The notes beneath the pieces were generated by a model that saw nothing but the letters and a program-made list of their open reading frames with translations, did no database searches and was not told where the DNA came from. A stretch of 64,000 nucleotides of DNA from the IMG/VR virus record IMGVR_UViG_3300020165_000007, positions 124,001 through 188,000 of that record; one strand, written 5' to 3'. The stretch comes from a virus. A program made the position numbers and the translations under genes. Positions 3,089-63,756 of this stretch are shown here, piece by piece. Positions within the stretch are counted from its first letter, which is position 1; every line of letters begins with the position of its first letter.

Positions 3089-3335
3089 CTTTATCTATTT
3101 TTTTATAATCAAACTTTTTACCTATTTCTTTATTAAAAAAACTTCCTTGTGATTCTGCCATTCTAAACTTAGTAAAGATAGAGTGAGGCACTTCACTATA
3201 TTCATATTGTATCTCACCTTTAAACGTCACTAAAAGTTTTTGTGTCGACGTATCATACTCCACAATCTTGACTGTTGAAGAGTCAATCTCACAGATTATC
3301 TTCTTACCTAATATTCTTTCTGTTTTAATCGACAT
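3081..3335 (-). CDS. KTSC-domain protein
   Basis: Eighty-four residues. The C-terminal half (EYSEVPHSIFTKFRMAESQG, then SFFNKEIGKKF) matches the KTSC domain: an aromatic/valine/proline stretch, then a Ser-Gly-x-Phe-Phe-Asn motif and a basic end. KTSC is a small domain found alone in phages and fused to lysyl-tRNA synthetases; its molecular role is not established. It overlaps its neighbours by 11 and 8 nt. Confidence 0.75.
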   Translation of the reverse strand: MSIKTERILGKKIICEIDSSTVKIVEYDTSTQKLLVTFKGEIQYEYSEVPHSIFTKFRMAESQGSFFNKEIGKKFDYKKIDKDG

Positions 3336-3834
3336 TACTATTGGATATTAATATATAAGAAATAAAATCGTTGTCTTCTCCCATTGTGAGCCTTTGAACC
3401 TTGTTTAAAAATCCACTAACCTTAAAGTCCTCATTACTTATTCTTAAATCTTCCGCCGCCGCTATTTCAGCATTATTCCTTGCCTTTTTCTTTGCAATTT
3501 CACGGTCCGTTGAGTCTGCAACACCAAAATATAAAGTTTCACCATTAACGTCTATTTTACCTTCTGATTTATTCGTGTCTCGAACATCCTGAATAATTTC
3601 ATCAATGGGTTTATTGTTATACTTTTTTACTTCTACTTCTACTTCTTCTTCATCACCGTCAAGTTTATCTTTGATATTATCGACAGTGTTTTTAATCGCC
3701 TCTTTACCTTTTTGGAAACCTTTCTTTATACCATCTCTTACACCTCTAAAAATTCCTTGTTCATCAAGCTCAGATTCGTTAATACCCATTAACTCACGAT
3801 TACGTTTTACTTCATTCAATATATCCTTATTCAT
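3325..3834 (-). CDS. Candidate capsid-targeted internal protein
   Basis: A 169-residue protein. The first 19 residues (MNKDILNEVKRNRELMGINE) form an amphipathic basic helix ending in (I)xE, like T4 internal-protein targeting peptides cut by the gp21 protease. Residues 30-70 are very lysine/glutamate rich. The C-terminal part (residues about 85-165) contains ADSTDREIAKKKARNNAEIA and looks like a small alpha/beta domain. A TATTTATA motif lies 13 nt before the ATG. The function of the mature protein is unknown; packaging in the head is inferred from the N-terminus. Confidence 0.75.
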   Translation of the reverse strand: MNKDILNEVKRNRELMGINESELDEQGIFRGVRDGIKKGFQKGKEAIKNTVDNIKDKLDGDEEEVEVEVKKYNNKPIDEIIQDVRDTNKSEGKIDVNGETLYFGVADSTDREIAKKKARNNAEIAAAEDLRISNEDFKVSGFLNKVQRLTMGEDNDFISYILISNSNVD

Positions 3835-3845
3835 GACAATATTTT

Positions 3846-3853
3846 ACTATAAA
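3846..3853 (-). promoter_or_regulatory. Late-type promoter motif TATTTATA
   Basis: Perfect TATTTATA on the minus strand, 13 nt before the ATG at 3834. The same octamer at the same spacing precedes the genes starting at 10962 and 27906. Confidence 0.5.
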
Positions 3854-3865
3854 TACTTCTATTAA

Positions 3866-3899
3866 TAAAAAACCCCTCACTTTTGATGAGGGGGTTTTA
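3866..3899 (-). terminator. Rho-independent terminator
   Basis: A stem of about 8 bp (CCCCTCA with TGAGGGG) is flanked by A-rich and T-rich runs on both sides. It directly follows the stop codon of the UVR-domain gene and separates it from the virion-type run. Confidence 0.8.
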
Positions 3900-4343: not shown

Positions 4344-4422
4344 TTTGTTTTTTTATTATTAGTTTATTAAATTTACATTTTTATAGTTAATATCGTACCA
4401 ACATATTAAATTAACTCTAAAA

Positions 4423-7679: not shown

Positions 7680-9538
7680 AACGGGTCAAAAAGTGTGTAG
7701 TTGTTCAACAATTTAATTATTGTTGTCAACTTAGCACTACCTTTTTTTATTTCATTATCTTTATTAATTATTTCAAAATTAATTTTAGAGTTTTTTGGGT
7801 TAACCCCTGTAAATATTATAGAATCTTCACTTTCTGACGATTTAATTGCGTGAGGAGTATTAAGACCAAATTTATTATTTATATACTTTAATATTCTTCT
7901 ATACTCATTAACGTCTGACACTACATTATCATCAGATTCGACATCCGATAAAACATTTTCCAACAGATTTGTCATATCACTGTTAAACGAGTCATTAAAC
8001 ACATCCAAATCCTGATATTCATTTACACTATCCATAAAGTATGTGTCTAAGTCAATATTTTGTTGGATTACGTTCTCCAACACTTGCTCTGTAGACAAGT
8101 CTTTATTGTAATCTAAATTATCCTCGTAGATATCAATAAGTTTATCAATACTGATTTTATATTGACCAAAACAACCTTCATCGTCAACCTTTGTTAATCC
8201 TATTTCATCATAAAGATTACATATTTCATCTTCAATATATTTTATTACACCTTGGTGTATAGACCTGTCCTCGGCTTCGGAATACAAATAACCAAAATCT
8301 TCATATAATTTTGGTAATTTATTTTCTATAAATTTCGATACTTTTACGTCCCAATCACCGTCAGGTTTAATTTCACTACCATCAAACGCCTCTAACAACT
8401 CAGGTTCTATTATCTCAACAATAGAACGTAATATATCTATATGTTCAGGTGTTAATACATAAAGTGGGTAACCTTCCATCATATCGTCATTAAATCTTGA
8501 TGTCTCATAAAAAAAATCTCCATTAGGGTTTTCATATGACCATAGATAATAACCTATCGCATCTTCACCGACCTCATCCTCCATAAAGTCCAAATAATTC
8601 TTAAGTTCATTACTGAAATTAAAAATTGCGTTCTCACCATCAAACCTATCAAAGAAGTGAGATGTTAATGATTCATACATAGATGTCTTAGGGTTATTTT
8701 TTACTTTCTTTAGAGTTTCGTAGTCATCCCCACGTTCCGTCAGTTTATTAATCTCTTCCTTTATTGGTGCAAATCTTTCTAATAAAAAACTAAATTTTTC
8801 CCCGTGGTCCTGTTGATTGTATACCTCAGGTGTGCCGTTACCATGAGGTACAAGTAATGCCATTTTACCGTATGTTCTGTCTGAAGATTTTTTATCTATA
8901 ATGTAATATAGTTTACCTCTTGATGTATATCTGTTAAAATAGTCGTCGTTATCAGTACTGGTGGTACACCATTTAGTACTTGCTCCGTAGTAACATGATG
9001 ATTTATGTGATAATGGACGTATTATTAAAAATCTATCGTTTTCATAAACTCTATCTACTTCTTTTTTTACTTCTTTTTCAGTCCTTATCTCATCTAAATA
9101 ATCTTCGTACTTATTAACAAAACGAAATAAATCGTGAATGGTATCAAACGAGGTAATGTCTTTTGGTTTTGACCTTATCTTTTTTTCTGTACTTTCACTA
9201 CTAAAATTTCCTTCTATATTTAAGATATTAAACATATTATCAACCTTTTCAGGTGATAATCTTTCAACAATATCATGATACTTTTTAATATTGACCCATA
9301 TAATACTTGCGACTGAAATTGGGTCCCCTCCTCCTACAACTGAAGAAGTGGGTTTATTAATTTCATCTATAAATTTTTTAACACCCCATTCAGAATACTT
9401 TTTAGTTAAGCTTGGGTCGTTATTTATAATTATTTCGGCATATTTTATCGCCTCGTCACCTAACGGTTCAAGTTGATTTCGGAACTTATCTATTATACGC
9501 TCCTTTTTACCTTCTAATAATAGAGTTATAAACTTCAT
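7676..9538 (-). CDS. Candidate capsid-targeted protein with WCT motif
   Basis: A 620-residue protein. It starts MKFITLLLEGKK, a short hydrophobic leader reaching LLE-G, which fits the cleavable N-terminal pattern of this window. Around residues 165-225 is a conserved-looking block: FLIIRPLSHKSSCYYGASTK, then WCTTS and GKLYYIIDKK. I associate this block with phage proteins of unknown function. The C-terminal half is acidic and mostly helical. The start codon overlaps the stop of the upstream gene by 1 nt, so the two are coupled. Function unknown; head packaging is inferred. Confidence 0.75.
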   Translation of the reverse strand: MKFITLLLEGKKERIIDKFRNQLEPLGDEAIKYAEIIINNDPSLTKKYSEWGVKKFIDEINKPTSSVVGGGDPISVASIIWVNIKKYHDIVERLSPEKVDNMFNILNIEGNFSSESTEKKIRSKPKDITSFDTIHDLFRFVNKYEDYLDEIRTEKEVKKEVDRVYENDRFLIIRPLSHKSSCYYGASTKWCTTSTDNDDYFNRYTSRGKLYYIIDKKSSDRTYGKMALLVPHGNGTPEVYNQQDHGEKFSFLLERFAPIKEEINKLTERGDDYETLKKVKNNPKTSMYESLTSHFFDRFDGENAIFNFSNELKNYLDFMEDEVGEDAIGYYLWSYENPNGDFFYETSRFNDDMMEGYPLYVLTPEHIDILRSIVEIIEPELLEAFDGSEIKPDGDWDVKVSKFIENKLPKLYEDFGYLYSEAEDRSIHQGVIKYIEDEICNLYDEIGLTKVDDEGCFGQYKISIDKLIDIYEDNLDYNKDLSTEQVLENVIQQNIDLDTYFMDSVNEYQDLDVFNDSFNSDMTNLLENVLSDVESDDNVVSDVNEYRRILKYINNKFGLNTPHAIKSSESEDSIIFTGVNPKNSKINFEIINKDNEIKKGSAKLTTIIKLLNNYTLFDPF

Positions 9539-10962
9539 TAGTCATATGCTGCACATCCTATACCACCACTGTCTTCAAAAAATCCGACACCACCACCGCT
9601 CTTAATAAAATTAAAAATCTTACGGTTTCTCCCTCCTGTTGGTTGTGTATCACTTGTTATTTTAATATCCCATTCACCAATTTTATCATCAGTACCAGGT
9701 TCACTCTTTTCTGTATCATAATCAAATTTAACAGCCAATTGTATTATACAATATTTATACTGTTCATATTCATTTGGTGAACTGTGTGGTTCTTGCCCAT
9801 TAAATGTTCTGTCACCCTCTTGTTTAAATGAATTAGGGTCACCACCACCATCAGAAAATTGATTTGGACTTGGTGGATTTGGTCCTGATGAACCGTCACC
9901 ATTTCTACCATTAGAATTTAAAGTGACATTTACTGTACTTATGTCGGGTACTAAAGAACTTAATTCATTAACTATGTAACTATATACACTTTCAGCTCTC
10001 TCTTGAGAAAGTTCTTTAAAATTCATTTGCTGAGCCTCTCCTGTATTTCTGTATCTTGACGCTGATGTCGCAATTACAAATGGGTAGTTTTCACCGTCTA
10101 CTTTATTCGCCACTGAAACTTTAGCATCTGGAAATTGTTTTAGAAAATCGGTAATATCACCTTTAAATTTTTTAGTCCACTCAACGACGCCTTGACCCAC
10201 TCTTGTTGAGTTGTTAGGGAATGGTTCACCTTCAGTTTTCTTGTCTATTGAGTGATTAACTTTAACCGCGGGTATTACAGTTTCATCTTTTTCTTCTTTT
10301 GATAACTTACCAGGTATTAGACGTATTGATTTAATATTTTTTCTACATTCACCTATATCAGGAGTACTTTCATCTTTCTTTTCAGGGTATTTTTTAGTAC
10401 ACCAATCGATAAAATATTGAATGAACCCTTCTTTATTTTCTTCTGTCATAGGAGGAACATCGGCACCTGATTGTCTTTTGTCTTTTCCTTTTACACCCTT
10501 ACTACCAGTTTTACAAGCGTTAAGTGATGACTCATTAAAGTCCGGATTTAACGAATCTTCGCCGAGAGGGAATCCGAATTTTACTTGACCTAAACGGTCA
10601 CCGTTTTGGTCTTCAATATTTCTTAACTCTTTTACAGAGTTACGATATTGGCTTTCATCTTTAAAATATGATTTAGGGATGTAATTGTAACTACTGTATA
10701 GATATTGTCCATCAACACCTCTTCTTGTTGTTGTTTTTTCCGGTAACTTTTCAGACTCTAATTCTGAAACAGGGAATCTATATTTGAAATAATATCTTGG
10801 TGAACAACTGAAATCATCACCAGCACTTTCCCAATAAATTTTACTCTTTTCATCTAATAATGAGACAAACACTCTTTCTATATTGTCAGTTTGTTCTAAA
10901 ACTAACTCCAACCCCATAATTTGTCTCATGCGGTTAACTTCATTTATAATATTACGCTTCAT
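9538..10962 (-). CDS. Candidate capsid-targeted protein with OmpA-like domain
   Basis: A 474-residue protein. The N-terminus (MKRNIINEVNRMRQIMGLEL then VLEQ) is a basic amphipathic helix ending in LE-Q, as in other cargo candidates. Residues about 240-370 resemble an OmpA-like domain: a beta strand (YPFVIATSASRYR) followed by the typical helix LSQERAESVYSYIV, then another strand. OmpA-like domains bind peptidoglycan, which would suit a protein acting in the periplasm during entry. A Gly/Pro/Asn-rich stretch follows. TATTTATA lies 13 nt before the ATG. The OmpA assignment is moderate. Confidence 0.75.
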   Translation of the reverse strand: MKRNIINEVNRMRQIMGLELVLEQTDNIERVFVSLLDEKSKIYWESAGDDFSCSPRYYFKYRFPVSELESEKLPEKTTTRRGVDGQYLYSSYNYIPKSYFKDESQYRNSVKELRNIEDQNGDRLGQVKFGFPLGEDSLNPDFNESSLNACKTGSKGVKGKDKRQSGADVPPMTEENKEGFIQYFIDWCTKKYPEKKDESTPDIGECRKNIKSIRLIPGKLSKEEKDETVIPAVKVNHSIDKKTEGEPFPNNSTRVGQGVVEWTKKFKGDITDFLKQFPDAKVSVANKVDGENYPFVIATSASRYRNTGEAQQMNFKELSQERAESVYSYIVNELSSLVPDISTVNVTLNSNGRNGDGSSGPNPPSPNQFSDGGGDPNSFKQEGDRTFNGQEPHSSPNEYEQYKYCIIQLAVKFDYDTEKSEPGTDDKIGEWDIKITSDTQPTGGRNRKIFNFIKSGGGVGFFEDSGGIGCAAYD

Positions 10963-10975: not shown

Positions 10976-10983
10976 TATAAATA
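10976..10983 (-). promoter_or_regulatory. Late-type promoter motif TATTTATA
   Basis: Perfect octamer on the minus strand, 13 nt before the ATG at 10962. Confidence 0.5.
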
Positions 10984-17395: not shown

Positions 17396-18789
17396 TTTTC
17401 TTTGGGTTTCCACGCATTTATTGATTCTGTGAATTCCTTACTATTAACTCTCACTCTTTCATAAATATCTGAGTTTTCAGGTTTTTTAAGTTTAAAACCT
17501 TTTTTTTTTAAGTTTTCTAAAAATTCCTTCTGAGACTTCGTAAATTCGTTTGTAAGACCTTCCCCATTTAGTAATGACTGTAAACCTTTCTTTTCTTTAC
17601 CCTTCATAACCTCTTCAAAAGGTTGTTCTTTTTTCATCGATTGATTATGTGTGTTGATATAACTATCTCTTTGTATTTCCTCTTTTTCTCCCCCTCCAAA
17701 TTCAACTTCAGGTATCTTATCACCACCGACTATCTTAAAATCTCTATAATCAGGACCCTCATTATTAGTAATGGTAAAATATATTATACCACCGTCCAAT
17801 AATTTACCTAATCCATTCATCTGAGAATTAAAAGGAAGTTCAATATTTGCATTATTATAGTAAGAACCCAATCTAACGACAGGTTCTCCCGTTTTTTTAT
17901 CTTCACCTTTAGCGACTACTACTGACCTAATAAATGCAATATCTTCAGGATATTTTTTCATTAAATCCATAAATTCTTTATTTATTTCTTCACGGTCTTT
18001 ATCTGTAAAAACTACTTTTTGTTTTCCTTTGTCATTTGCAGTATAAAAATTAAATTCTTTTAACTTTTCATCTATTTTTTCTGGTATTGAATTTTCCATT
18101 TCATTTTCTTTTAATACGTCTTTTAACCCTTCATTAACTTTATTTGTACACCAATTAGAATCTGAAAATTCTTGCCATGAACCACTACTCGGCGGGTCTA
18201 TAAAACCCCATTTTCCACCTCTTTCTTCTATCGGTAACGGTATATTTTTTCTACCTGTTTGTGAATCAGCAAAAAAGACAATTCTCTCATCTTCGTATTG
18301 ACTGTTTGGTTCTCTTTGAACGAATATTAAAGGCCAAACTCTTCCACAAGGTATACCTTTCAAGTAATCGACCACATCTCTAAATTGTTGATTTACAGTT
18401 GAGCTTACACCGCTTTTACCTAAATTTAATTTCTCTTTTTTTAACTCTCTACCACTTTTTTGTCTTGCGGGTGGTGATGGCGGTGTTCCTCCTGGGTTAG
18501 GTTGTGTTGTCGAGCCTGTTGTAGGAGATGGCGTAGTACTACCAGTAGGAGGAGGTGTTGTACTTATCTTTTTAGTGTAGTACGCTTTTGGTGGCATTGG
18601 AGGACCTGTGACAGTATCATCTTGATATAATTTATAATCTGAAATGTTATCACCGTTAGATGTGATTTTGTTTTTTAAATTTGGTTCATTATCCGGTCCT
18701 TCCCATCCTGCACCAGAAGGTGTGCCACTTTTTTTTTCAGTTTGTCCCCAACTAGTGGATTGTTCGTTTAGTATTATTTTATTTGACAT
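17392..18789 (-). CDS. Candidate capsid-targeted protein with a domain shared with the M23 protein
   Basis: About 465 residues from the ATG at 18789. It opens MSNKIILNEQS, a very short leader reaching LNE-Q. Residues about 15-105 are Pro/Thr/Ser/Gly-rich and disordered. Residues about 125-215 form a domain that recurs at the C-terminus of the M23 peptidase at 55.2 kb: RxxPLIFVQREPN, then RGGKWGFID, WQEF and SNWCTNK. The rest is charged and helical. It overlaps both neighbours, so it belongs to one minus-strand operon. The shared domain suggests a common partner or location in the virion. Function unknown. Confidence 0.75.
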   Translation of the reverse strand: MSNKIILNEQSTSWGQTEKKSGTPSGAGWEGPDNEPNLKNKITSNGDNISDYKLYQDDTVTGPPMPPKAYYTKKISTTPPPTGSTTPSPTTGSTTQPNPGGTPPSPPARQKSGRELKKEKLNLGKSGVSSTVNQQFRDVVDYLKGIPCGRVWPLIFVQREPNSQYEDERIVFFADSQTGRKNIPLPIEERGGKWGFIDPPSSGSWQEFSDSNWCTNKVNEGLKDVLKENEMENSIPEKIDEKLKEFNFYTANDKGKQKVVFTDKDREEINKEFMDLMKKYPEDIAFIRSVVVAKGEDKKTGEPVVRLGSYYNNANIELPFNSQMNGLGKLLDGGIIYFTITNNEGPDYRDFKIVGGDKIPEVEFGGGEKEEIQRDSYINTHNQSMKKEQPFEEVMKGKEKKGLQSLLNGEGLTNEFTKSQKEFLENLKKKGFKLKKPENSDIYERVRVNSKEFTESINAWKPKEK

Positions 18790-18794
18790 TATAT

Positions 18795-20651
18795 TCATTT
18801 TGATTTAAAATCACCATTATCATATACATAATAAGTATCAGTTCCATTACCTTTTCTTGACACTACATACCATGTTTTACCACCGTCCTCACCTGCTTTT
18901 TTCGCAGATAAGTAATTATATACATCCTCACTTAAATTATCCCTTACGAATGATTTGAAACTATCTTCCTCATTCTTATACGTAACAATCTCGGCAGATG
19001 GTAGAAGATTACGGACCTTATTTACTATTTCCATAATTATTCCATCAAATTCACTCATGTCGTACTTTCCTTGTGAGGCTGTTTCTATAAATGCATCAAC
19101 TATAGAATAACCCATACTGTCCTGAACGCTACCTAAACCTCCAGGTACAAGCCTTTCAATAATATTAACCATAGTTCCAACAAAGCTATTAGGGTCATCT
19201 TCCCCTTTCTGTCTAAGAACATCAAAAAGAACTCCAACTCTTTCGTAGGCCCATTCACTTAATCCTTGTTTCCATATTGTATTAAAATCAATTTTAAAAT
19301 TATTTAAATCCGTATCAAACATATCGGAAAGCCCGTCTAATAATGAGTTCCAACCAGACTCAATTAAACCTCTCAGAATATCAAATACAAATATAATAAC
19401 CGATTGTGCAAACCAACCTACAAAATAACCAACAAGTGATTGTGCCAAATAAACTAATGCATATTTCAACTTTTTACCTCCAGTTTCTCCTGCGGATGTC
19501 CTAATTAAACCCAAATACTGCTTATTTAAACCTGCAAATTGATTTGTAAGCATAAATTGACCTACTGACGTTCTAGGGTCAATTAATGATTTTACGGCCT
19601 CCATTCTTTGACCTTTAGTTAATAATTGTTTTACTGTTAATAATAATTCACCTGAAAATGACTTCATAACGTCTCCCATTATTTCTCCCACACCCTCTCC
19701 GGACTTCTCCCAAGTGTCATTAAAAATACTAAAAAACGGTATTTCACCATCCCTAATTAAATTTGTTATTTCAGAATCTAAACCTGCATCGGCAAGAACT
19801 TCTGCGGCCGCTCCGTCTTTTTTAATTTCTAACTGGTTTAATAATCTTGTTATTGCAACTGCATAAGCTTCTGTAATTTCTTTAATTTTTTTATCTGAAT
19901 TTTGTTGACTTTTGGCAATTGCGACATCAGTTATGTAACCCGCATTTAATTCCTTAATTTCCTGTTTTACCTTATCAAAACTTTTTACAAACAATGTAAA
20001 GAAATCTTGAATAAATAATGTTGGAGTTTTATCATCAATAACTTTTCTGAGCTTTCTCATTTGTCTCTTACTTAGTTTAGTAGGGGCTACACCTGATAAA
20101 GTATCTACAAAACTACTTGGTTTATTAACGTATATATCTAATTGTTTTTTTACAGTATCAAAAATCCCATTTACATTAATAGGTTTTTGTGGTGAGTCAC
20201 CAACAACACGATTTAATGCCGTTACTAACTCGGTACCGGGTTTCTTCATTCCTTTTCTTAATTTTTCTAAAAATTCTCTCTCACTCATACTATTCTTTCT
20301 TTGGATATCCTTTAAAAATCCTTTATAAAATTCTAATGCAAGTTCATCGTCGTCATTTATAAGTTTACCCAATAGAGTTTTTTCAGTTTCACCCATTTCG
20401 GATACTCTACCATTAAAATCTTCTAAAATATAAATAAGACTATCAAAATTTTCTCTTTTGAACGTTGTACCACCTATTTCTATTTCTAAAAAATCACTTT
20501 TTTTAAGTGCCTTATTGACATATTTTAATATGTTATCGTATACACTGCTACCAATACTTTCTTTTAATATCGTTTTAGGTAAAGACATAATTTCCTTCAT
20601 CCTATGTATTTCAATAAGAATATTAGGGTTAGTTAAATGTAATAGGTCCAT
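18795..20651 (-). CDS. Candidate capsid-targeted membrane-active protein
   Basis: A 618-residue protein. The first 34 residues (MDLLHLTNPNILIEIHRMKE, then IMSLPKTILKE-S) resemble the cleavable leaders in this window, with LKE-S as the likely cut. Residues about 70-390 are helical and charged. A hydrophobic stretch near residues 398-430 (LVGYFVGWFAQSVIIFVFDI) could span a membrane. A TATTTATT motif lies 10 nt before the ATG. A large injected protein with a membrane segment would fit a role in crossing the inner membrane at entry, but that is conjecture. Confidence 0.72.
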   Translation of the reverse strand: MDLLHLTNPNILIEIHRMKEIMSLPKTILKESIGSSVYDNILKYVNKALKKSDFLEIEIGGTTFKRENFDSLIYILEDFNGRVSEMGETEKTLLGKLINDDDELALEFYKGFLKDIQRKNSMSEREFLEKLRKGMKKPGTELVTALNRVVGDSPQKPINVNGIFDTVKKQLDIYVNKPSSFVDTLSGVAPTKLSKRQMRKLRKVIDDKTPTLFIQDFFTLFVKSFDKVKQEIKELNAGYITDVAIAKSQQNSDKKIKEITEAYAVAITRLLNQLEIKKDGAAAEVLADAGLDSEITNLIRDGEIPFFSIFNDTWEKSGEGVGEIMGDVMKSFSGELLLTVKQLLTKGQRMEAVKSLIDPRTSVGQFMLTNQFAGLNKQYLGLIRTSAGETGGKKLKYALVYLAQSLVGYFVGWFAQSVIIFVFDILRGLIESGWNSLLDGLSDMFDTDLNNFKIDFNTIWKQGLSEWAYERVGVLFDVLRQKGEDDPNSFVGTMVNIIERLVPGGLGSVQDSMGYSIVDAFIETASQGKYDMSEFDGIIMEIVNKVRNLLPSAEIVTYKNEEDSFKSFVRDNLSEDVYNYLSAKKAGEDGGKTWYVVSRKGNGTDTYYVYDNGDFKSK

Positions 20652-20949: not shown

Positions 20950-22747
20950 AAACAGATGAGTCGCAGCTATATTGTGTTAGTCTCATATCTGGTTCCGACT
21001 TTCTTTTACGTAATCCATCATAAAAATATATGGTGCCGTCAATATCATAGGATATCTCTTGTTCCCTTTCAACACTACTATCGTTTTTTCTTCTATTATA
21101 TTTTATTTCTTTTGCGTTTGGGTGATTGATAACACACGGATAGTCTTCTTTAAATTTATTCTTTTTTTCTTCGTCGCTTTTTGGTTTATCATCTGTACCC
21201 GAAACTAGTTCAAATATAGTTTTATTATTAGATTCCTCTAAAGTACGTAACGCTTCATAAAGTGATTCCATTGACTCCTCAGCTACTTTATCAGGGTTTT
21301 GACCTAACGCCCTTATAGTAGACGCCCCTAAAATTGTAGTAAATATACCACCCATCTGTAATCCCATATTTAAAGTAGATTTTAAAAAGTTTGTTTCTTC
21401 AAGTATTTCAGATACGGCCTCTAAAGATTTTTTAGTTAATGGTTTTGACATACCAGACTCATTCAATTTAATAATTGCGTCGTCTACATATTTTTTAAAA
21501 TTACCCGCCTTTGTGATTAATTCTCTACTTGAGGCATAAAAAGAATAAACAAGAGACCTTTCTTCTTTTGACAGATTTTTTAACGCCGACCAAATTACTG
21601 TAGGTTTAACCTCACCTGACAAGAATTTAATATAGTTTGTTATAAATCCAATAACCCTAACGAATGATGTTTTACCTATCTTTGTCCCTAATTGTTTAAA
21701 TACTGAAGAGCCTATGTCACCGAATAAAGGTATCAAACCGATAGATAATGATATAAGTGCACCAAATTTATCATTTTTATTTTTCCATAAATCGTAAGCA
21801 TGTGCAAATTCAATAGAAAATGATGCGACTGGATTTATAAAAAACATAAGACCAGCTAATAAATCACACCAAAATTCTTCATAGGCATAATCAATACCTA
21901 TTAATTTAAATGCCCCAACATTCTTACCTTCAGTACCAAACCATTCATCAAAAATACTATCCTCACCACAAACAAGTGAAGATAATTGTTTGAAACCAAT
22001 CTCTGACATTTCAGAAGCTTCATTCCACCATATTTCTAAACCACTTGCTTGTAAAACTTCTTTTTTAGGTTGTTGGTAGATATTATTGTTATCATTTTTA
22101 TAGTATTTAAAATACCAATCAATACTAAAAGGATTATTTTTATTACTCTCAGTGTTTAGATTCTTAGATATTTTACCCCCTAATAGAGTACGATAATTAG
22201 TGCCGTTTATTTTTAGTTTTTGAGAAACGCCATTAGGGTAAATTCTCTGTAGTTGGTCATATAACGAATTTCTTAATCCACTCTCAAACTCTTCTCCGTA
22301 TTTTTCACCGTATTCATTAAACCAATCGTCCATAGTTTTATCTGATGAGTTATTAATAGGAGACTCGATAAAACTTTCATACAACTCCTTCCAGTTAGAA
22401 TTAATTGTTTTTATTACTTTAGTGTTTTCCGGAAAATACATTACTCCTTTTGGTGTGTTATACATACACCACCCTTTATACACGGGGTGTTCGACTGTTC
22501 CTGCAACTGCTAAATCAGGACTACCACAATTTTTAGGGTACCCGAAATCACTCCCTGTTATATCTTCATCCGATTGATATTGTTTAATTTTAATAGGGTC
22601 ATTCTTTATTGAGGATGATATTTTACCTACCTCAACATCTCTTAATGGTCCTGATGGTTTTTTATCTTGTTCAGATAAAACTTTAGACCTATCGTAATTC
22701 ATAAGTCTATTCATCTCCACTAACTGTATTCTAATATTTTCCTCCAT
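20936..22747 (-). CDS. Candidate capsid-targeted membrane-active protein
   Basis: A 603-residue protein. The N-terminus (MEENIRIQLVEMNRLMNYDR then SKVLSEQ) is an amphipathic helix ending LSE-Q. Residues about 275-345 contain two or three hydrophobic segments (LLAGLMFFINPVASFSIEFA, LISLSIGLIPLFGDIGS), and another weaker one lies near residues 480-500. The arrangement parallels the 618-residue protein at 18.8 kb: leader, soluble region, central membrane segments. The two may act together in genome entry. Late-type motif spacing to the ATG is only 4 nt. Confidence 0.72.
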   Translation of the reverse strand: MEENIRIQLVEMNRLMNYDRSKVLSEQDKKPSGPLRDVEVGKISSSIKNDPIKIKQYQSDEDITGSDFGYPKNCGSPDLAVAGTVEHPVYKGWCMYNTPKGVMYFPENTKVIKTINSNWKELYESFIESPINNSSDKTMDDWFNEYGEKYGEEFESGLRNSLYDQLQRIYPNGVSQKLKINGTNYRTLLGGKISKNLNTESNKNNPFSIDWYFKYYKNDNNNIYQQPKKEVLQASGLEIWWNEASEMSEIGFKQLSSLVCGEDSIFDEWFGTEGKNVGAFKLIGIDYAYEEFWCDLLAGLMFFINPVASFSIEFAHAYDLWKNKNDKFGALISLSIGLIPLFGDIGSSVFKQLGTKIGKTSFVRVIGFITNYIKFLSGEVKPTVIWSALKNLSKEERSLVYSFYASSRELITKAGNFKKYVDDAIIKLNESGMSKPLTKKSLEAVSEILEETNFLKSTLNMGLQMGGIFTTILGASTIRALGQNPDKVAEESMESLYEALRTLEESNNKTIFELVSGTDDKPKSDEEKKNKFKEDYPCVINHPNAKEIKYNRRKNDSSVEREQEISYDIDGTIYFYDGLRKRKSEPDMRLTQYSCDSSVFRQD

Positions 22748-22759: not shown

Positions 22760-23440
22760 TTACGTTAAAGTATTTGATTTACCTCTATTAATTCCAGATT
22801 CCCATTTACTATTTTGGTCAATCATATTTCCCTTACCTCTACTTATATTAGAATTCCATACATTAATAGTTAATTGATTTGCAGGTCCACGAGTTAAACC
22901 TGTTTCCCATGTAGAAGTATTACTGTTTGTAGAACTAGAATCTCCTCCTGTAGTTTCTCCTCCACCTTCATCTTGTTCGTTAAACTCAGACTCTACATTA
23001 CCATATATTTCGGGATACCTAAGACCAAACATTTTAAGTAATTCACCTGCCTTAGCATTCGCTTCATCCTCTATTTTACCACCAACATTTTGTATTTTAC
23101 CTTCAAGTTCACCGTCTTCATTTTGATGATGATGAACCAATTCATGTGCGACCGACCTCATAACGTCTTGTAACGCTCTTTCTTTAGTATATACCGTAAC
23201 TTCAGCATTCTCTATATCTGCATTTTCACCGTCTTCGTACCTATAAACCGCAGTTGTATCTACTTTGGATTTATCCTCCGTGTAATCAATACGAACGTTA
23301 TTTTTTATATTTAATTCTTTAACAGTTAAATCAACAAACTTATCTAATAAAATTCTTTCATTATTATCAAATGATTCATCACCCTCATTAATACTCATAA
23401 GGGTTTTTATTCTATTGATATCTTCGTTAAGTAAATTCAT
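22760..23440 (-). CDS. Candidate capsid-targeted zinc metallopeptidase
   Basis: About 226 residues from the ATG at 23440; a TTG two codons earlier is unlikely. The leader MNLLNEDINRIKTLMSINEG ends INE-G. A zincin motif, VAHELVHHHQ (HExxH), sits near residues 100-110 with a possible downstream Glu ligand (EDEANAKAGEL). After a Gly/Glu/Ser/Thr-rich linker come three short C-terminal repeats of the type W-x-(S/T)-x-(L/I)-x-RG. A packaged peptidase could act on head proteins during maturation or on host proteins after injection. Confidence 0.78.
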   Translation of the reverse strand: MNLLNEDINRIKTLMSINEGDESFDNNERILLDKFVDLTVKELNIKNNVRIDYTEDKSKVDTTAVYRYEDGENADIENAEVTVYTKERALQDVMRSVAHELVHHHQNEDGELEGKIQNVGGKIEDEANAKAGELLKMFGLRYPEIYGNVESEFNEQDEGGGETTGGDSSSTNSNTSTWETGLTRGPANQLTINVWNSNISRGKGNMIDQNSKWESGINRGKSNTLT

Positions 23441-24432: not shown

Positions 24433-24435
24433 ACC

Positions 24436-24443
24436 TATAAATA
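24436..24443 (-). promoter_or_regulatory. Late-type motif TATTTATA, close spacing
   Basis: Perfect octamer on the minus strand, 3 nt before the ATG at 24432. If this is a -10 element the transcript would begin at or inside the start codon. Confidence 0.4.
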
Positions 24444-24464
24444 TCAAAAAATATGTCTATTTAT

Positions 24465-31270: not shown

Positions 31271-31315
31271 AAAAAATACCTTTTATCATAAATATACTAA
31301 ATAACCTAATATTTA

Positions 31316-31323
31316 TATTTATA
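31316..31323 (+). promoter_or_regulatory. Late-type promoter motif TATTTATA
   Basis: Perfect octamer on the plus strand, 10 nt before the ATG at 31334. A plus-strand example showing that the motif orientation follows the gene. Confidence 0.5.
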
Positions 31324-31333: not shown

Positions 31334-31972
31334 ATGAAGGTAATTTTAACTGAAAGTCAATTTAACACGTTATTAAAAGAGAATTACAAGGAGAAGGTCG
31401 GAGGTTCTCTAATGAATCTTAGTAAATTCTCAAATAAAGTAGTCAGAGACGCGTCAAACCAACTAAAATTTGATTTTAGATTTTTAGTCACTTATGGTGC
31501 AGGTATAGGCTCTATACTACAATCGGTATTTGATTATTTAGAAGGTAACTTTACAGGTCTGAGTGAAACTCAGTTAGCGGGATTGGCTGTTATGGCGGTA
31601 GGGGTTGTGTTTTTTGAAAATAAAGATTTAAAGTCTCAAATAAAAAATATTGAGTCGATGGGTTTAAGTTCTGAATTAGATAACGTTGTTAGTTATACTC
31701 AAAATTTAAAAAATAAATTTTCTAATATTTTAAGGGTTTTAGGTTTGTCTATTCACAGAACATCAAATATTATATCATATAGTTTTTTAATACCATTACT
31801 CTCTATTATTATAGAAATTGTAACATTACATGGTGTTGAATCTTCCCAATTTAGTATGTTAATTGAGAGTTTATTAACATCGGGTCTTATTGCCGTAGAG
31901 GGTGTAGCGTTAAGAGATATATTAATGAAGGCTGGTGATATTATTAGTCAAAAGACTGTTAATCAAAAGTAA
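31334..31972 (+). CDS. Candidate capsid-targeted membrane protein
   Basis: A 212-residue protein starting MKVILTESQFNTLLKENYKE, a leader with LKE-N. Three or four hydrophobic segments follow: near residues 50-68, 82-97, 140-165 and 175-192. It is one of few plus-strand members of the leader-bearing group and has its own TATTTATA. Membrane topology with a cleavable leader suggests delivery into the host envelope. Function unknown. Confidence 0.7.
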   Translation: MKVILTESQFNTLLKENYKEKVGGSLMNLSKFSNKVVRDASNQLKFDFRFLVTYGAGIGSILQSVFDYLEGNFTGLSETQLAGLAVMAVGVVFFENKDLKSQIKNIESMGLSSELDNVVSYTQNLKNKFSNILRVLGLSIHRTSNIISYSFLIPLLSIIIEIVTLHGVESSQFSMLIESLLTSGLIAVEGVALRDILMKAGDIISQKTVNQK

Positions 31973-32291: not shown

Positions 32292-32666
32292 TCATAATTC
32301 AAAATCTTTTTTTAATTGTTCAATATCCATTCTAAGTTTTTCATCTCTTTCAATAGAATCTGTAGCACTTTCAAAGTCTACGTCTTTTTTGTTTTTAGAT
32401 GAATAATCAGTATCGGTAGAATATGCTTTATTATGTGAACCTCCCGAATCTAACCCCTTTTCTAATCTAATTAATCTTTTATGTATTTCCTTAATAGAAT
32501 TTTCTACATCTGACCAATTTTCAATACTTTGTAAAATTATAGTATCTGATAAAAATTCAGGTAAATCATAATCAACAACGTCTGATGTATTCCCGTAAAG
32601 ACCTTGTTCTTTAATAGTCTGTATAATTACTTTATTTAGTTGGGTTTCTGTTAACTTAATTTTCAT
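32292..32666 (-). CDS. Candidate capsid-targeted small protein
   Basis: A 124-residue protein beginning MKIKLTETQLNKVIIQTIKE, followed by QG: the leader is almost the same type as those at 31334 (KVILTESQFN) and 61.4 kb (KLKESDLEN). The mature part is acidic and helical. It overlaps the zincin gene upstream by 4 nt. Function unknown. Confidence 0.72.
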   Translation of the reverse strand: MKIKLTETQLNKVIIQTIKEQGLYGNTSDVVDYDLPEFLSDTIILQSIENWSDVENSIKEIHKRLIRLEKGLDSGGSHNKAYSTDTDYSSKNKKDVDFESATDSIERDEKLRMDIEQLKKDFEL

Positions 32667-54909: not shown

Positions 54910-54917
54910 TATTTATA
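54910..54917 (+). promoter_or_regulatory. Late-type promoter motif TATTTATA (plus)
   Basis: Perfect octamer on the plus strand, 17 nt before the ATG at 54935. Confidence 0.45.
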
Positions 54918-54934: not shown

Positions 54935-55174
54935 ATGGGTCATATTAGAAAAAATATTAAAAGGGTTTTAAAAGAGTACGATAAAGAGGAATTATTTGAC
55001 TACACACCAAATTTTTCCGCGGATGAATTACTCAAGTATATAGAATCAGAATGGGACGTAGAGATGTTGAGTTTAGTTAACTCAAAAATAAATGAGAGGA
55101 TTGATTTCTTAAACCGTATTGCTGACATGAGTGCCAAGAAAGAAGTTAAAGGTTTTAAAAGATATGAAGATTAA
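54935..55174 (+). CDS. Candidate capsid-targeted small protein
   Basis: Seventy-nine residues starting MGHIRKNIKRVLKEYD, a basic amphipathic helix ending LKE-Y. The rest is helical and charged. It overlaps the M23 gene by 11 nt. Function unknown. Confidence 0.65.
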   Translation: MGHIRKNIKRVLKEYDKEELFDYTPNFSADELLKYIESEWDVEMLSLVNSKINERIDFLNRIADMSAKKEVKGFKRYED

Positions 55175-56087
55175 ATTAATCGATATACTATTAGAAGAAG
55201 TTACTGAGTCTCAACTACTACCGTCACCAATCGGACCTACTAGTGAAACTTCTTCGTTTGGTTCTCGTTCTATCGGTGGAGTAAGGGGTCAACATAACGG
55301 TATAGATTTACACTCACCTGTGGGTACTCAGATACTTAATCCGGCTAGTGGTAGAGTTATAACAGCAAAAAAAGTCGATGAGACATGGAATGAAGTACTT
55401 ATTAGAACAGAAAACAAACCTAATGGTAATGATAGGTGTGGTTCTCGTGTTGTCATAGAACATACATCAGGAATACTAAACGGTCTAAAAACTATTTACT
55501 GTCATTTGTCAGAAATAAATGTGGGTAAGGGTGATGTTATTGAAGAAGGTCAATTAATTGGTCTTACAGGTGGTAAACGTAATAGTAAAGGGTCAGGTAG
55601 AACTATCGGTCCACACTTACATTTAGGGGTTAAAAATAATAATGAACCTTTAGACCCTAAAAACTACTTTTCATTCAAACGGGGAGGTCTTGGAGTGTCA
55701 TCCGTACAAAGTAATAGTACAAATACAGGAACCACTAAAAGTTCACCTATAATACCTTCGGAGTACATTAAAAATAATTTAAAAAAGAAGGCCATAGGTA
55801 AAAATAAAGTTGAAGTAAATAATCAACTTAAAGACCTTAAAAATTACCTTTTCTACGATATTAAGTGTGCAAGAGCGTTTCCTGTAATATATGTACAATG
55901 GGAACCTAACCCACAAAATGAACCTGAACGGGTTGTATTATTTGGGGATTTGCAAGATGGTACACCTTATCAAGTGATTCCTGTAGAAAAAAGAGGTGGT
56001 GAGTGGGGATTTATTGATTCTTCTGTAGGTGAATGGCAAGAATTTTCAGAATCTAATTGGTGTACGAATAAGTACAGACTTAAGTAA
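55164..56087 (+). CDS. M23 peptidase with leader and shared C-terminal domain
   Basis: About 307 residues from the ATG at 55164. The leader MKIKLIDILLEE reaches LLE-E. The M23 (lysostaphin-type) metal site is complete: HNGIDLHSPVGTQI (H, D) and, later, GPHLHLGV (HxH). A Ser/Thr linker leads to a C-terminal domain (VIYVQWEPN, RGGEWGFID, WQEFSESNWCTNK) that also occurs in the protein at 17.4-18.8 kb. It cuts peptide cross-links in peptidoglycan. With the leader it is a good candidate for a virion-borne wall hydrolase used at entry. Confidence 0.87.
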   Translation: MKIKLIDILLEEVTESQLLPSPIGPTSETSSFGSRSIGGVRGQHNGIDLHSPVGTQILNPASGRVITAKKVDETWNEVLIRTENKPNGNDRCGSRVVIEHTSGILNGLKTIYCHLSEINVGKGDVIEEGQLIGLTGGKRNSKGSGRTIGPHLHLGVKNNNEPLDPKNYFSFKRGGLGVSSVQSNSTNTGTTKSSPIIPSEYIKNNLKKKAIGKNKVEVNNQLKDLKNYLFYDIKCARAFPVIYVQWEPNPQNEPERVVLFGDLQDGTPYQVIPVEKRGGEWGFIDSSVGEWQEFSESNWCTNKYRLK

Positions 56088-58239: not shown

Positions 58240-58576
58240 TACAAAACTTATTTAAATCAATTTTTAGTGTTTCTAACTCATTTTCATCGACAATACTACC
58301 AGGTACTAAATTGTAACCATCATTTCTTGTTAATTTTTTAGAACTACACCTATATGTTATTGAATGTGATTTATTACCCTTACTCACTAAGTCTGCACTT
58401 ATCAAATCACCCTCTCCTACGATATTTTCTAATTCCAATCTTCCGTCAAATTGTACATCGAGTCCTTTTTGAAATCCCACGTCATAACCTGTTTTAGCAA
58501 AATTAATAACTTGCTCATTTAGGTTATAAAGACCCCTAATTTTACTCTTTTCTAACTCAGTAATCGTAAACTTCAT
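58232..58576 (-). CDS. Candidate capsid-targeted small protein
   Basis: A 114-residue protein beginning MKFTITELEKSKIRGLYNLN and then EQ: a leader ending LNE-Q, close in style to the one at 63.7 kb (SIQSLYKGLLNEQ). The mature part is beta-rich (DVQFDGRLELENIVGEGDLI). Function unknown. Confidence 0.7.
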   Translation of the reverse strand: MKFTITELEKSKIRGLYNLNEQVINFAKTGYDVGFQKGLDVQFDGRLELENIVGEGDLISADLVSKGNKSHSITYRCSSKKLTRNDGYNLVPGSIVDENELETLKIDLNKFCNV

Positions 58577-60810: not shown

Positions 60811-61062
60811 TTAATCTTCGTCTTCGTCTTCGTCTTCTTCGTGACCACCTTCTAAGTCCAAGACTAATTTCTGACCACTGCAAGAACACTCACCATCTTT
60901 TAATAACATTGCGATATGGTCCAAAGTGATTTCAATTGCATCACCTTCTTCTTCGTCTTCTACTTCCATATCCATGTCCATTTCGACTTCTCCTTGCTCT
61001 GCAAGAACTCTTTTTACAATATTTTCTAAATCTGATTCCTTAAGTTTAATAATTTTTTTCAT
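60811..61062 (-). CDS. Candidate capsid-targeted acidic protein
   Basis: Eighty-three residues. KLKESDLENIVKRVLAEQ at residues 6-23 is the clearest leader of the set, ending LAE-Q. The mature part is very acidic, with a CSCSGQK pair and a tail of Asp/Glu repeats. It follows its neighbour with a 4-nt overlap and shares the leader with it almost residue for residue. Confidence 0.75.
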   Translation of the reverse strand: MKKIIKLKESDLENIVKRVLAEQGEVEMDMDMEVEDEEEGDAIEITLDHIAMLLKDGECSCSGQKLVLDLEGGHEEDEDEDED

Positions 61063-61487
61063 GATGTAAGTATTTTATTTAGTGCTAATATGTTATTTAA
61101 ATTATTTTTATAATTCTGAATCGCCTGTGCCATCTCATTAGACATTCCATCAACATTCGGAACAACTCTATCGATATTTTTCAAAGCATTTTTAACATCA
61201 TTATCCATACTTCTAACTAATGATTTAAGTTCTGCCTTTACCTTTTCTTCCTTTGGGTTTTGACCTTTTGGTAGTTCTTTTGGTTTTCCTGTTTTTACGT
61301 AACTTTTCTTAGTATCTCTAAAAGATTTTCTGTTTTGTTGTCTTGCTTTTACTGCTCCAACACCTCCGGCAACTTTTGCTTTTAATCTATCAACAACCTG
61401 TTCGGTAGCCTCTTCTTCTTGCTCCGCAAGAACTCTTTTTATGATATTTTCTAAATCTGATTCCTTAAGTTTTATAATTTTTGCCAT
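61059..61487 (-). CDS. Candidate capsid-targeted basic protein
   Basis: A 142-residue protein with the leader KLKESDLENIIKRVLAEQ (LAE-Q). The mature part is basic and helical (KARQQNRKSFRDTKKSYVKT). All seven arginines are AGA. It resembles DNA-binding internal head proteins in charge and size. TATTTATA lies 14 nt before the ATG. Confidence 0.78.
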   Translation of the reverse strand: MAKIIKLKESDLENIIKRVLAEQEEEATEQVVDRLKAKVAGGVGAVKARQQNRKSFRDTKKSYVKTGKPKELPKGQNPKEEKVKAELKSLVRSMDNDVKNALKNIDRVVPNVDGMSNEMAQAIQNYKNNLNNILALNKILTS

Positions 61488-61501: not shown

Positions 61502-61509
61502 TATAAATA
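61502..61509 (-). promoter_or_regulatory. Late-type promoter motif TATTTATA
   Basis: Perfect octamer on the minus strand, 14 nt before the ATG at 61487. Confidence 0.5.
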
Positions 61510-61578: not shown

Positions 61579-62331
61579 TTATGATTCGAAATGTAATTTT
61601 ATACAAGACTCATGGAATGGGAAGAACTTATTCATCCTGTTTTTCACCGATTTTTCTACTCTATCAATCACCCACGAAGCATCCTGAAAATAACGAAGTG
61701 TGACACTATGTGGTTCCGCGTGTATGTCAAAATCTTTACCCATATCCTCATAAAATACAAATGAGTGTTCACTCACAGGGCTTATTACCATATGTACTAT
61801 TAAATCACACCCTTCTTTTTCTGAAGATACTATCTCCACACTATCGACTTGCCATACACCGTTTACGGACTCATTTACATCGGTTTCACCATCCCAATAT
61901 ATTCTATTGTCTTCAACATAGTTGTTTTCAAATGCATCTTTATTTAGTTTATCTCTTATAAGATTCTCAAGTTTATTGAATTCTACAGACTCATTAAATA
62001 AACCAAATTCACTTTTATAATACCCTTTGTTACCATCCAACGATATCTCATCATCAATCTCTTTCATTTTATTTTCTAAGTATTCACTAACATCAGATGG
62101 AAGATTTTCATCGTCTATCATACCATACTTTTTCAAAGAATTTCTAATATTACTAAACTCATTTTGAATTTTGTAATGTTCCGACCATATAGAATCCGGA
62201 GCGTCTGTAACTCTAAGTATTTCAGATTCAGTAAATCCGTTTTCTAAAAATAAAGACCTTAATTTTCTATATAATACGTATAGATTACTATCTAAGTCAG
62301 TTTGTATAATAAATTTTAGTGATGGTGACAT
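61579..62331 (-). CDS. Protein of unknown function
   Basis: A 250-residue acidic protein with no recognised motif. The last third is beta-rich (VWQVDSVEIVSSEKEGCDLI; HSFVFYEDMGKDFDIHAEPH). No leader, signal or membrane segment. It ends 90 nt before the leader-bearing pair and follows the spanin-like genes by 5 nt. Confidence 0.65.
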   Translation of the reverse strand: MSPSLKFIIQTDLDSNLYVLYRKLRSLFLENGFTESEILRVTDAPDSIWSEHYKIQNEFSNIRNSLKKYGMIDDENLPSDVSEYLENKMKEIDDEISLDGNKGYYKSEFGLFNESVEFNKLENLIRDKLNKDAFENNYVEDNRIYWDGETDVNESVNGVWQVDSVEIVSSEKEGCDLIVHMVISPVSEHSFVFYEDMGKDFDIHAEPHSVTLRYFQDASWVIDRVEKSVKNRMNKFFPFHESCIKLHFES

Positions 62332-62336
62332 ATTAA

Positions 62337-62750
62337 TTATTCATTACTTAATACTACAGGTAAAATAGCCGTTAATACGGTGGTTAATATTGTGACATTA
62401 CGTGTGTTTCTTAATCTTTTTATTTTATCCTCTTTAGATACAATTTCTAAAGATTGGTAAGTAGTCTTATCAATTAAACCTTGATTTATGAACATCAAAG
62501 AATCTGTAGTCGTTTTAAATTTATCAATTAATATATTGTTCTGTTCTACAATACTATTCAAATCATTTACTTGAGATAAAAGGGAGTCTACTTCCATTTT
62601 ACACAAATCATACTTAATTAAATCACTAGCGATTTGTTTGGCTTGGATTGTTGGAATGCAAACTAAGTCTTCACTCACTGTATCGCTTTGCGAAAAAATC
62701 GGAAAGCTCATTATGAGACATATTGTCGATACCATTAAGTGTCTTATCAT
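62337..62750 (-). CDS. Signal-peptide coiled-coil protein, spanin-like
   Basis: A 137-residue protein: signal peptide (MVSTICLIMSFPIFSQ), a short Cys-containing segment (VCIPTIQAKQIASDLI), a coiled coil (residues about 55-105), and a C-terminal hydrophobic segment (VTILTTVLTAILPVV). This layout is common in Bacteroidota phages near lysis genes. It overlaps the next gene by 80 nt in another frame, like embedded Rz/Rz1 spanin pairs, although it is not a lipoprotein. Confidence 0.65.
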   Translation of the reverse strand: MIRHLMVSTICLIMSFPIFSQSDTVSEDLVCIPTIQAKQIASDLIKYDLCKMEVDSLLSQVNDLNSIVEQNNILIDKFKTTTDSLMFINQGLIDKTTYQSLEIVSKEDKIKRLRNTRNVTILTTVLTAILPVVLSNE

Positions 62751-63048
62751 AATCTTTTTTTAACTTATCTATCTGTTTATTCCTGTTTTGAATTGTAGTG
62801 TTTAAACTATCTACCTTCGACTCGGTTTCAACTAAAGTAACCTCTAAACGTTCTTTTAATTTAGTTGCGTCATCAACTTTATCCTGTAACTTGTCTTTCT
62901 CTTCTTCTAATAAAGAATCAAATCTTTCTTCAGCAGCCATAACAGCCTTATCTACAAAATTTTTAGTCATGGACCAAACCGCAACTCCGCCTAATATACC
63001 TCCTATTAGTAATCCGACTCCTAAGGAAATTAACCTAACATTTTTCAT
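62671..63048 (-). CDS. Membrane-anchored coiled-coil protein, spanin-like
   Basis: A 125-residue protein with one N-terminal membrane span (LISLGVGLLIGGILGGVAVW) and a long coiled coil (residues about 40-110). This is the topology of an inner-membrane spanin. The overlap with the gene at 62337 supports a paired function in outer-membrane disruption at lysis. Confidence 0.68.
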   Translation of the reverse strand: MKNVRLISLGVGLLIGGILGGVAVWSMTKNFVDKAVMAAEERFDSLLEEEKDKLQDKVDDATKLKERLEVTLVETESKVDSLNTTIQNRNKQIDKLKKDYDKTLNGIDNMSHNELSDFFAKRYSE

Positions 63049-63063
63049 ACTTCACCATATGAT

Positions 63064-63756
63064 TTATGCCTTCATCATCGAGGATGGAAAATCGGGTTTA
63101 GATGGAAAATCAGGTTTGTTAATCTTATCTCTTGGTGGTACTTTACCTCCTTCAAAACATTGTCCTATACCAACACATTGTAGCAAACCTTTTATTTTAT
63201 CTTCATCAATACAGAAATCCTCTTTTAGTCCTCCCATAAACTTAGATATACATCCTTGTACTTTCTCACAGTCCACATTGATACCACCGTCTTTAACTGG
63301 TACAGTACCTATTTGACCACCACCTTTACACTTATCACAAATTTCTTTAGGGATACAACCTAATTCACATAATTTACCTGTAGTTTCAGGTCCGATACCA
63401 CCGTCAACTTTAAGTCCATTTTTTCCTTGAAATACTTCAACAACATCCTTAGTCATACTTCCAAAGATACCATCAACAACTAATGGTTGTAGAGGTTCGA
63501 TACCACATGCGTTTAACGCTTCTTGAAATAACTTAACCAACTCACCTTTAGCACCTCTCTTAAGTTGTCCTTTACCGACCAATACTTGACAAAATTCGTC
63601 AGCAATTGGTAAGTATTTTTTTACAGGTACTTCTTTTTTTGGTGGAGCGTCGGTCATTGGTGGAGATACGACTTTCTCTTGTTCATTTAATAAACCCTTA
63701 TATAGACTCTGTATACTCAGTTTTTCATTTTCGGATAGTATGATTCTTTTTCCCAT
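63064..63756 (-). CDS. Candidate capsid-targeted peptidoglycan-binding protein
   Basis: A 230-residue protein. The leader (ILSENEKLSIQSLYKGLLNE then Q) ends LNE-Q. After a Pro/Lys linker comes a PG_binding_1 domain: LKRGAKGELVKLFQEALNAC, then VDGIFGSMTKDVVEVFQ and VDGGIGPETTGKL. The C-terminal 90 residues are Cys- and Gly-rich (CDKCKGG, CEKVQGC, CIDEDK, CVGIGQC), perhaps disulphide-bonded. It could hold a virion enzyme or the particle to peptidoglycan during entry. Confidence 0.82.
   Translation of the reverse strand: MGKRIILSENEKLSIQSLYKGLLNEQEKVVSPPMTDAPPKKEVPVKKYLPIADEFCQVLVGKGQLKRGAKGELVKLFQEALNACGIEPLQPLVVDGIFGSMTKDVVEVFQGKNGLKVDGGIGPETTGKLCELGCIPKEICDKCKGGGQIGTVPVKDGGINVDCEKVQGCISKFMGGLKEDFCIDEDKIKGLLQCVGIGQCFEGGKVPPRDKINKPDFPSKPDFPSSMMKA

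Follow-up and report, generated by a model that had tools for sequence, protein, structure and literature searches.

The head of bacteriophage T4 holds a handful of packaged proteins that accompany the DNA, and at least one of them, IPI, protects the incoming genome. In the accessible part of one account, the internal proteins of T-even phages are described as a highly diverse set whose sole conserved part is a capsid-targeting sequence (CTS), and the T4 leader is reported to suffice for packaging a foreign protein (PMC3012670). According to the available parts of two sources, IPI, IPII, IPIII and Alt of T4 carry a short N-terminal leader with a Glu site that is cut by gp21, a MEROPS S77 protease (PMC3012670, PMC9958956). 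The present analysis concerns N-terminal leaders in a DNA stretch of 64,000 nucleotides, positions 124001-188000 of the 270,383-base virus record IMGVR_UViG_3300020165_000007 (hereafter the window), and in related IMG/VR records. The parent record belongs to a T4-type phage of 270 kb. Its leaders are quite probably capsid-targeting sequences of the T4 type, greatly expanded, that would load head cargo for delivery.

A first-pass annotation of the window had proposed one code, an amphipathic, mostly basic helix ending in (L/I)xE, on about twenty proteins. In place of the single code there are at least three leader families that look unrelated and differ in their cores. They occur together with short T4-like leaders in the window's record and its IMG/VR relatives. 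Where a slash marks the end of the leader, the consensus is MKNLITEISRIKxMMGLxxxLxE/ for class A, MKKIIRLTESDLxRIVKRVIxE/Q for class B and MKKFIITESEKxRILxLHx(n)LxE/Q for class C. The description as an amphipathic, basic helix was checked on leaders collected from IMG/VR and is apt for class B, whose leaders have a hydrophobic moment of 0.62 (0.30 after shuffling) and a mean net charge of +2.8; it does not suit classes C and A, in which the moment stays at the shuffled level (0.26 vs 0.27 and 0.33 vs 0.31, respectively). Most leaders do end at (L/I)xE; in the stretch examined, one in three class C leaders and one in five of class A depart from this.

IMG/VR was scanned with three degenerate DNA patterns of the leader cores, none of which includes a start codon; counts from the pattern B and C scans are lower bounds. 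A match was taken as N-terminal when a start codon lay at most 12 codons upstream and the first start of the frame at most 30. Among the testable matches listed, 186 of 195 (B), 126 of 126 (C) and 69 of 84 (A) stand at the N-terminus of an open reading frame (ORF), and under a stricter rule (first start within 12 codons) the figures for the matches listed are 174/195, 116/126 and 66/84. Thirteen of the 15 class A exceptions lack an in-frame start codon and are probably chance matches. The end motif [LI]xE[QNSGA], not imposed by the patterns for these two classes, was counted in 70 of 106 class C proteins, where interior windows average 4.6 and shuffles 10.7, and in 36 of 44 class A proteins (1.9 and 6.3), whereas the class B search pattern fixes the final E. 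In class B the residue after this E, among the matches listed, is Q in 79 of 182, and next N, S, E, D and G.

Pattern B was found in 27 stretches in 257 Gb of cellular genomes against at least 120 in IMG/VR, these being raw counts and not rates. Seven of the 27 represent one unrelated small Flavobacteriaceae-type ORF family, several others come from chance frames, and a few resemble leader starts and lie in contigs from metagenome-assembled genomes or single cells; this fits a leader that is mainly viral. The consensus leaders B and C gave no tblastn match at an expectation value (E) of 10 in 50,697 phage isolate records, so that, at this sensitivity, cultured phages seem not to have the two families. 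Searches of open-access journal papers, which covered few subscription titles and no preprints, turned up no account of these leaders. The Flavobacteriaceae-type family (L577-L580, L582, L584, L595) consists of ORFs of 45-48 residues, MK(E/Q)KK(S/T)KRVIVRITESQF, chiefly from marine Flavobacteriaceae records, which the class B pattern matches yet which are unlike the phage leaders. A further possible leader type, MNLQExIRRILREE, is seen on two adjoining genes of another record (G030, locus L615, 7217-8013, minus strand).

In the window itself, all 15 leader peptides named in the first-pass annotation are present where it had placed them, as follows.

3775..3834, minus strand: class A leader MNKDILNEVKRNRELMGINE/S of gene 3325-3834, used to build profile A2
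9512..9538, minus strand: short T4-like leader MKFITLLLE/G of gene 7676-9538, recognised by motif
10894..10962, minus strand: class A leader MKRNIINEVNRMRQIMGLELVLE/Q of gene 9538-10962, matched by profile
18763..18789, minus strand: short leader MSNKIILNE/Q of gene 17392-18789, motif only
20559..20651, minus strand: class A leader ending KTILKE/S of gene 18795-20651, matched by profile
22670..22747, minus strand: class A leader ending KVLSE/Q of gene 20936-22747, used to build profile A2; no match to profile A5 at E 0.01
23384..23440, minus strand: class A leader ending SINE/G of gene 22760-23440, matched by profile
31334..31381, plus strand: class B leader MKVILTESQFNTLLKE/N of gene 31334-31972, used to build profile A1
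32607..32666, minus strand: class B leader MKIKLTETQLNKVIIQTIKE/Q of gene 32292-32666, used to build profile A1
54935..54976, plus strand: possible leader MGHIRKNIKRVLKE/Y of gene 54935-55174, motif only
55164..55196, plus strand: short leader MKIKLIDILLE/E of the M23 peptidase gene 55164-56087, motif only
58514..58576, minus strand: class C-like leader MKFTITELEKSKIRGLYNLNE/Q of gene 58232-58576, used to build profile A1; no match to profile A4 at E 0.01
60997..61062, minus strand: class B leader MKKIIKLKESDLENIVKRVLAE/Q of gene 60811-61062, matched by profile
61422..61487, minus strand: class B leader MAKIIKLKESDLENIIKRVLAE/Q of gene 61059-61487, matched by profile
63682..63756, minus strand: class C leader MGKRIILSENEKLSIQSLYKGLLNE/Q of the PG_binding_1 gene 63064-63756, matched by profile

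Ten of the 15 were used in building profiles A1 and A2, so that their matches arise by construction; the leader of 60811-61062 was not, and it was recovered all the same (E 4.8e-9). Four (those starting at 18789, 54935, 55164 and 9538) are recognised by the motif alone. For the first of these, the first ATG of the ORF is at 18798, and 18789 is the second ATG. A gene in a related record begins MKFMTILLE/GKKERL and resembles the short leader at 9512..9538. The profiles give 11 places in the window, which falls short of about twenty, and extension of the profile search to the rest of the 270-kb record, as had been suggested, added a few matches.

Of the 77 window genes, 17 have a strict form of the end motif, [LI][LNSKTAI]E[QSGN] within residues 6-38, against a mean of 2.6 for interior windows and 3.6 for shuffles, a count attained in 0 of 2000 trials. 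This motif was picked after inspection of the window data, and some of the 17 genes, absent from the earlier list, look like chance. Because the motif had been read off the window, the count was repeated on 20 fresh stretches from 7 related records, where 43 of 409 genes carry it (22.3 interior, 19.2 shuffled); the highest values in 1000 control trials were 37 (interior) and 40 (shuffled). The enrichment is real but weaker in the fresh stretches than in the window.

That leaders of one kind precede unrelated mature proteins, as the first-pass annotation had claimed, is borne out by body clusters, by a tandem gene pair and by a leader swap. Among the matches listed, 331 distinct leader-bearing proteins fall into 198 body clusters (single-linkage, E 1e-4), and 12 of the clusters hold more than one leader class, some of these mixed clusters being linked solely by a domain late in the proteins. 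The tandem genes 61059-61487 and 60811-61062 are identical at 65 of their first 72 bases and at 23 of the following 48. The conserved 72-base stretch stops just beyond the E/Q codons, and the bodies behind it are basic in 61059-61487 and acidic in 60811-61062. The clearest swap is a single body that bears a class B leader at locus L112 and a class C leader at locus L235, with 50.7% identity over 203 aligned columns, the leaders partly included. The alignment of the peptidoglycan (PG)-binding-like bodies of L119 and L132 (class B) with that of L252 (class C) begins at [VI]xEQ, ahead of which the leaders differ in length; the alignment for L200 begins a few residues earlier. Two class B proteins retain a class C-type tail, RQYLxE, behind the B leader, as though the one leader had been superimposed on the other. 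As a string pattern, RQYLxE turns up twice among 119,843 background residues; of the 106 class C leaders, 19 have it. The conserved residues of class B are encoded by several synonymous codons, and therefore the constraint acts on the peptide. Identity of leaders compared with that of bodies carries no weight here, since the patterns dictate part of the leader and so raise its value.

The prohead protease that the first-pass annotation had led one to expect is encoded in the same record: an S77 gene (PF03420, E 1.1e-23) occupies 115.9-116.7 kb and ends about 7.3 kb short of the window. Its motif residues His92, Ser155/156 and Asp181, which we take to have catalytic roles, are conserved in all five aligned proteins, namely its own, those of three relatives and the annotated protease of the Flavobacterium phage vB_FspM_immuto (hereafter immuto). 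Nearby are genes for a gp23-family capsid protein (PF07068, E 4.3e-73) and a T4-type portal (E 2.2e-80), with a scaffold-like protein and a terminase recognised by eye. The N-terminal region of the capsid protein ends in LINE/A (residues 57-61, after residue 60) in 74 of 75 aligned capsid proteins, which comprise a usable gene from 73 of 80 fetched relatives, the phage's own and that of immuto, where the site reads IVSE/A. In T4 the protease takes 65 residues off the capsid protein, as stated in the accessible part of the source (PMC9958956). The S77 gene and the capsid LINE/A thus provide the genome with an enzyme and a putative site of the kind in which the leaders end. As to the head genes themselves, the scaffold-like protein at L003 10024-11619 (minus strand) has several near-identical tandem repeats of 21 residues (EANEGKYGGNKGDESRSHRDY), and the portal genes of records G022 (163.1-165.6 kb) and G052 (88.7-91.3 kb) have in-frame insertions of about 400 residues, perhaps inteins.

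Leaders and S77 also occur together in other genomes. The leader-bearing set was drawn from records of at least 107 kb, 37 of the 38 listed being used and one, near-identical to the window, left out; G041 (locus L402), a chance pattern A match without a leader, was excluded, leaving 36 records. As these were chosen for holding a leader, only further leaders, other classes and S77 are informative in them. The controls were 16 of the 17 listed random contigs of at least 52 kb (a 59.7-kb one was omitted) and are shorter than the leader-bearing records. S77 was found in 26 of the 36 leader-bearing records against 2 of the 16 random contigs (Fisher p 8e-5), and when controls are restricted to at least 100 kb the comparison is 26/36 against 1/6 (p 0.016). 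Above 200 kb, 14 of 16 leader-bearing records have S77, and in a further, 27th record of the set the S77 gene is truncated by the contig end. The class A, B and C profiles gave 0 matches in 15 of the 16 random contigs; in the sixteenth, which alone among the large ones carries both S77 and gp23, class B gave 11 matches, with a variant such as MAKKLIRLTESDLHRIIENSVKRVLKE/S. Summed over the profiles, matches reach 30 in G030 (18, 7 and 5) and 13 in the window's own record, the sums covering 18 of the 37 records plus the window's own, with double matches across models retained.

The leader genes have an upstream sequence in common. TATTTAT lies within 80 bases upstream of 71% of 329 leader genes and of 34% of 2214 other genes at the same loci; the gene sets are greedy longest-ORF calls, so that start positions are less secure for the comparison genes than for the leader genes. 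Of 251 occurrences, 232 begin 11-40 bases ahead of the start codon, and the effect is specific to orientation (233/328 vs 63/328 for the reverse complement). In the window the box precedes 10 of 14 leader genes and 17 of 63 others (p 0.003; 60811-61062 was not in the gene set), for instance at the following positions.

61503..61509, minus strand: TATTTAT box, 22 nucleotides before the start of 61059-61487
63773..63779, minus strand: TATTTAT box, 23 nucleotides before the start of 63064-63756
10977..10983, minus strand: TATTTAT box, 21 nucleotides before the start of 9538-10962
3849..3855, minus strand: TATTTAT box, 21 nucleotides before the start of 3325-3834
31310..31316, plus strand: TATTTAT box, 24 nucleotides before the start of 31334-31972
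54910..54916, plus strand: TATTTAT box, 25 nucleotides before the start of 54935-55174

In the head region, TATTTAT is found before the genes of the scaffold and the S77 protease and before other genes of the module as well. It is a putative late promoter element of the phage. A small ORF at L003 13230-13415 (plus strand, about 117.2 kb of the record), which we take to resemble ribosomal protein bS21, also has the box upstream.

The bodies behind the leaders are varied. In the window, a named domain is found in two of them, an M23 peptidase (55164-56087) and PG_binding_1 (63064-63756). The body of 22760-23440 has a HELVH zincin-type motif, that of 31334-31972 is membrane-like by eye, and that of 9538-10962 is at best weakly OmpA/MotB-like (best MotB-type match, E 7e-3). 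Fold models of 22760-23440 and 9538-10962 are poor (mean predicted local distance difference test score 45.8 each), and PDB sequence searches with three bodies gave nothing below E 0.06. Censuses with Pfam and PHROGs covered the 80 longest of the 198 cluster representatives. Pfam recognises 16 families, each in a single member, including lysozymes, PG_binding, M23, cell-wall hydrolase, PAP2, OmpA and alpha/beta hydrolases, and for at least 64 of the 80 Pfam gave nothing at E 0.001. Among the 25 PHROGs listed, 12 are named endolysin, possibly via the same few proteins. By eye, the products of 17392-18789 (minus strand) and 55164-56087 (plus strand) have a common E(E/K)RGGxWGFID...SNWCTNK region and are different in the remainder.

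The host is probably a bacterium of the Bacteroidota, because a PorP/SprF-family protein and a protein bearing a type IX secretion signal are encoded in the phage genome, and because the closest capsid protein among phage isolates is from a Flavobacterium phage. The former (23458-24447, minus strand; E 4e-45) is a type IX secretion membrane protein, and the latter (13649-16645, plus strand) has 998 amino acids and carries a CHU_C type IX secretion signal domain. Other genes in the window encode an M43 metallopeptidase (44219-46234, minus strand) and a single protein in which a DUF4314 domain is followed by a polyphosphate kinase 2 domain (28685-31270, minus strand).

If the leaders act as those of T4 do, the tagged proteins would be made late in infection together with the scaffold and the protease, and the N-terminal leader would dock each of them onto the prohead core. 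The S77 protease would then cut (L/I)xE behind its last Glu; the mature protein would be retained in the head with the DNA and enter the next cell as cargo. Several leader families would serve this same role and be exchanged between genes. This scheme for docking, cutting, packaging and injection is drawn from sequence comparison, and several observations weigh against it. Neither S77 nor a T4 portal was found in nine of the 36 leader-bearing records, two of which are 233 and 274 kb long; gp23 was not found in eight of the nine, and one has gp23 fragments. These nine may be fragments or may have another head type. The S77-bearing immuto and the random contig G059 (58 kb), also with S77, gave no match to the A, B or C profiles; the presence of S77 does not imply these leader families. 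In the stretch examined, 36 of the 106 class C proteins and 8 of the 44 in class A have no end motif, and the Glu is mostly followed by Q in class B and by A in the capsid protein. In a comparison by eye with IPIII only, leaders A, B and C are unlike MKTYQEFIAE of T4. TATTTAT is present in just 1 of 80 regions upstream of the capsid gene and is scarcely enriched across the entire window (61 vs 53.9 expected), where its placement is what stands out. Some leader-bearing bodies are endolysin-like and endolysins need not be packaged; wall-active cargo suits delivery at entry, yet an ordinary endolysin needs no packaging, so that this evidence cuts both ways.

Part of the evidence would also fit leaders that stay uncut at (L/I)xE and dock outside the head, whether at the tail, the baseplate, a membrane site or an intracellular phage compartment. 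Wall activity or a membrane-like character, seen in several bodies, would suit tail or envelope proteins, leader genes occur in nine records with no detectable T4 portal, and some class C leaders lack the end motif. However, the motif stands at the boundary between leader and body, where homology begins in two B/C pairs and where the DNA identity of the tandem pair falls, and a matching protease is present in most of the same genomes; docking outside the head is rather unlikely. The tandem pair also resembles a duplicated 5' cassette, and the box travels with the leader, which raises the question of whether an expression cassette (promoter box, ribosome site and first codons) spreads with the leader peptide as a mere passenger. 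Third codon positions of class B vary at conserved residues, fitting a constraint at the protein level, and class C spacers of differing length often still finish in (L/I)xE, which makes a passenger peptide improbable. That N-termini rich in E, K and L look alike by chance in a genome rich in AT might be read from the loosest form of the motif, which is scarcely enriched (43 observed vs 33.7 interior and 36.7 shuffled). Chance was rejected on the strict-motif enrichment, the fall of start-free patterns at N-termini and the end motif above controls; with profile matches in other genomes and one body with swapped leaders besides, it is scarcely credible.

Taking the leaders as capsid-targeting sequences, we lean towards a wider view in which mostly uncultured, jumbo T4-like phages, probably of Bacteroidota, load tens of proteins per virion through exchangeable leader families, a mobile 'ship this' label. 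As the families are exchangeable, a phage could add or replace cargo by pasting a leader before a new body. If such a mobile label exists, the mature ends of hundreds of nameless phage proteins would become predictable as injected effectors. If the leaders mark head cargo, an N-terminal profile would give a ranked list of effectors with predicted mature starts, and the cargo repertoires of large phages would be far bigger and more exchangeable than the T4 model.

The system resembles that of T4 in its short N-terminal leaders with a Glu site at the end, its S77 protease, its gp23-type capsid and its varied cargo behind one kind of leader. It differs from T4 in having three longer, unrelated-looking leader families, with one case in which one has taken the place of another on a single body, and in match sums of up to 30 per record against the four T4 proteins that the accessible part of the source names (PMC9958956). 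Set beside the start of IPIII, MKTYQEFIAEA, the short leaders (MKFITLLLE, MKIKLIDILLE) look similar by eye. In the giant Salmonella phage SPN3US, a Glu-directed prohead protease likewise trims N-terminal propeptides from head and ejection proteins; the available parts of two reports give A-X-E as the site of this protease, gp245, and describe eight processed proteins, several propeptides of more than 100 residues and, as the sole shared N-terminus, that of the paralogs gp53 and gp54 (PMC5694885, PMC7411985). Immuto, which is cultured on Flavobacterium sp. LMO8, also has S77 and a gp23-type capsid protein with IVSE/A. Four of its genes begin with a common leader of the type MENFDLKKFLVENKLTxNSxL.E, ending in LLE, LLKE, ILKE or LINE, and this family differs from A, B and C, giving no match to their profiles. 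Since the T-even CTS is found on diverse proteins, the principle is already known; what is new is the set of leader families, the exchange of one for another on a single body, and the scale.

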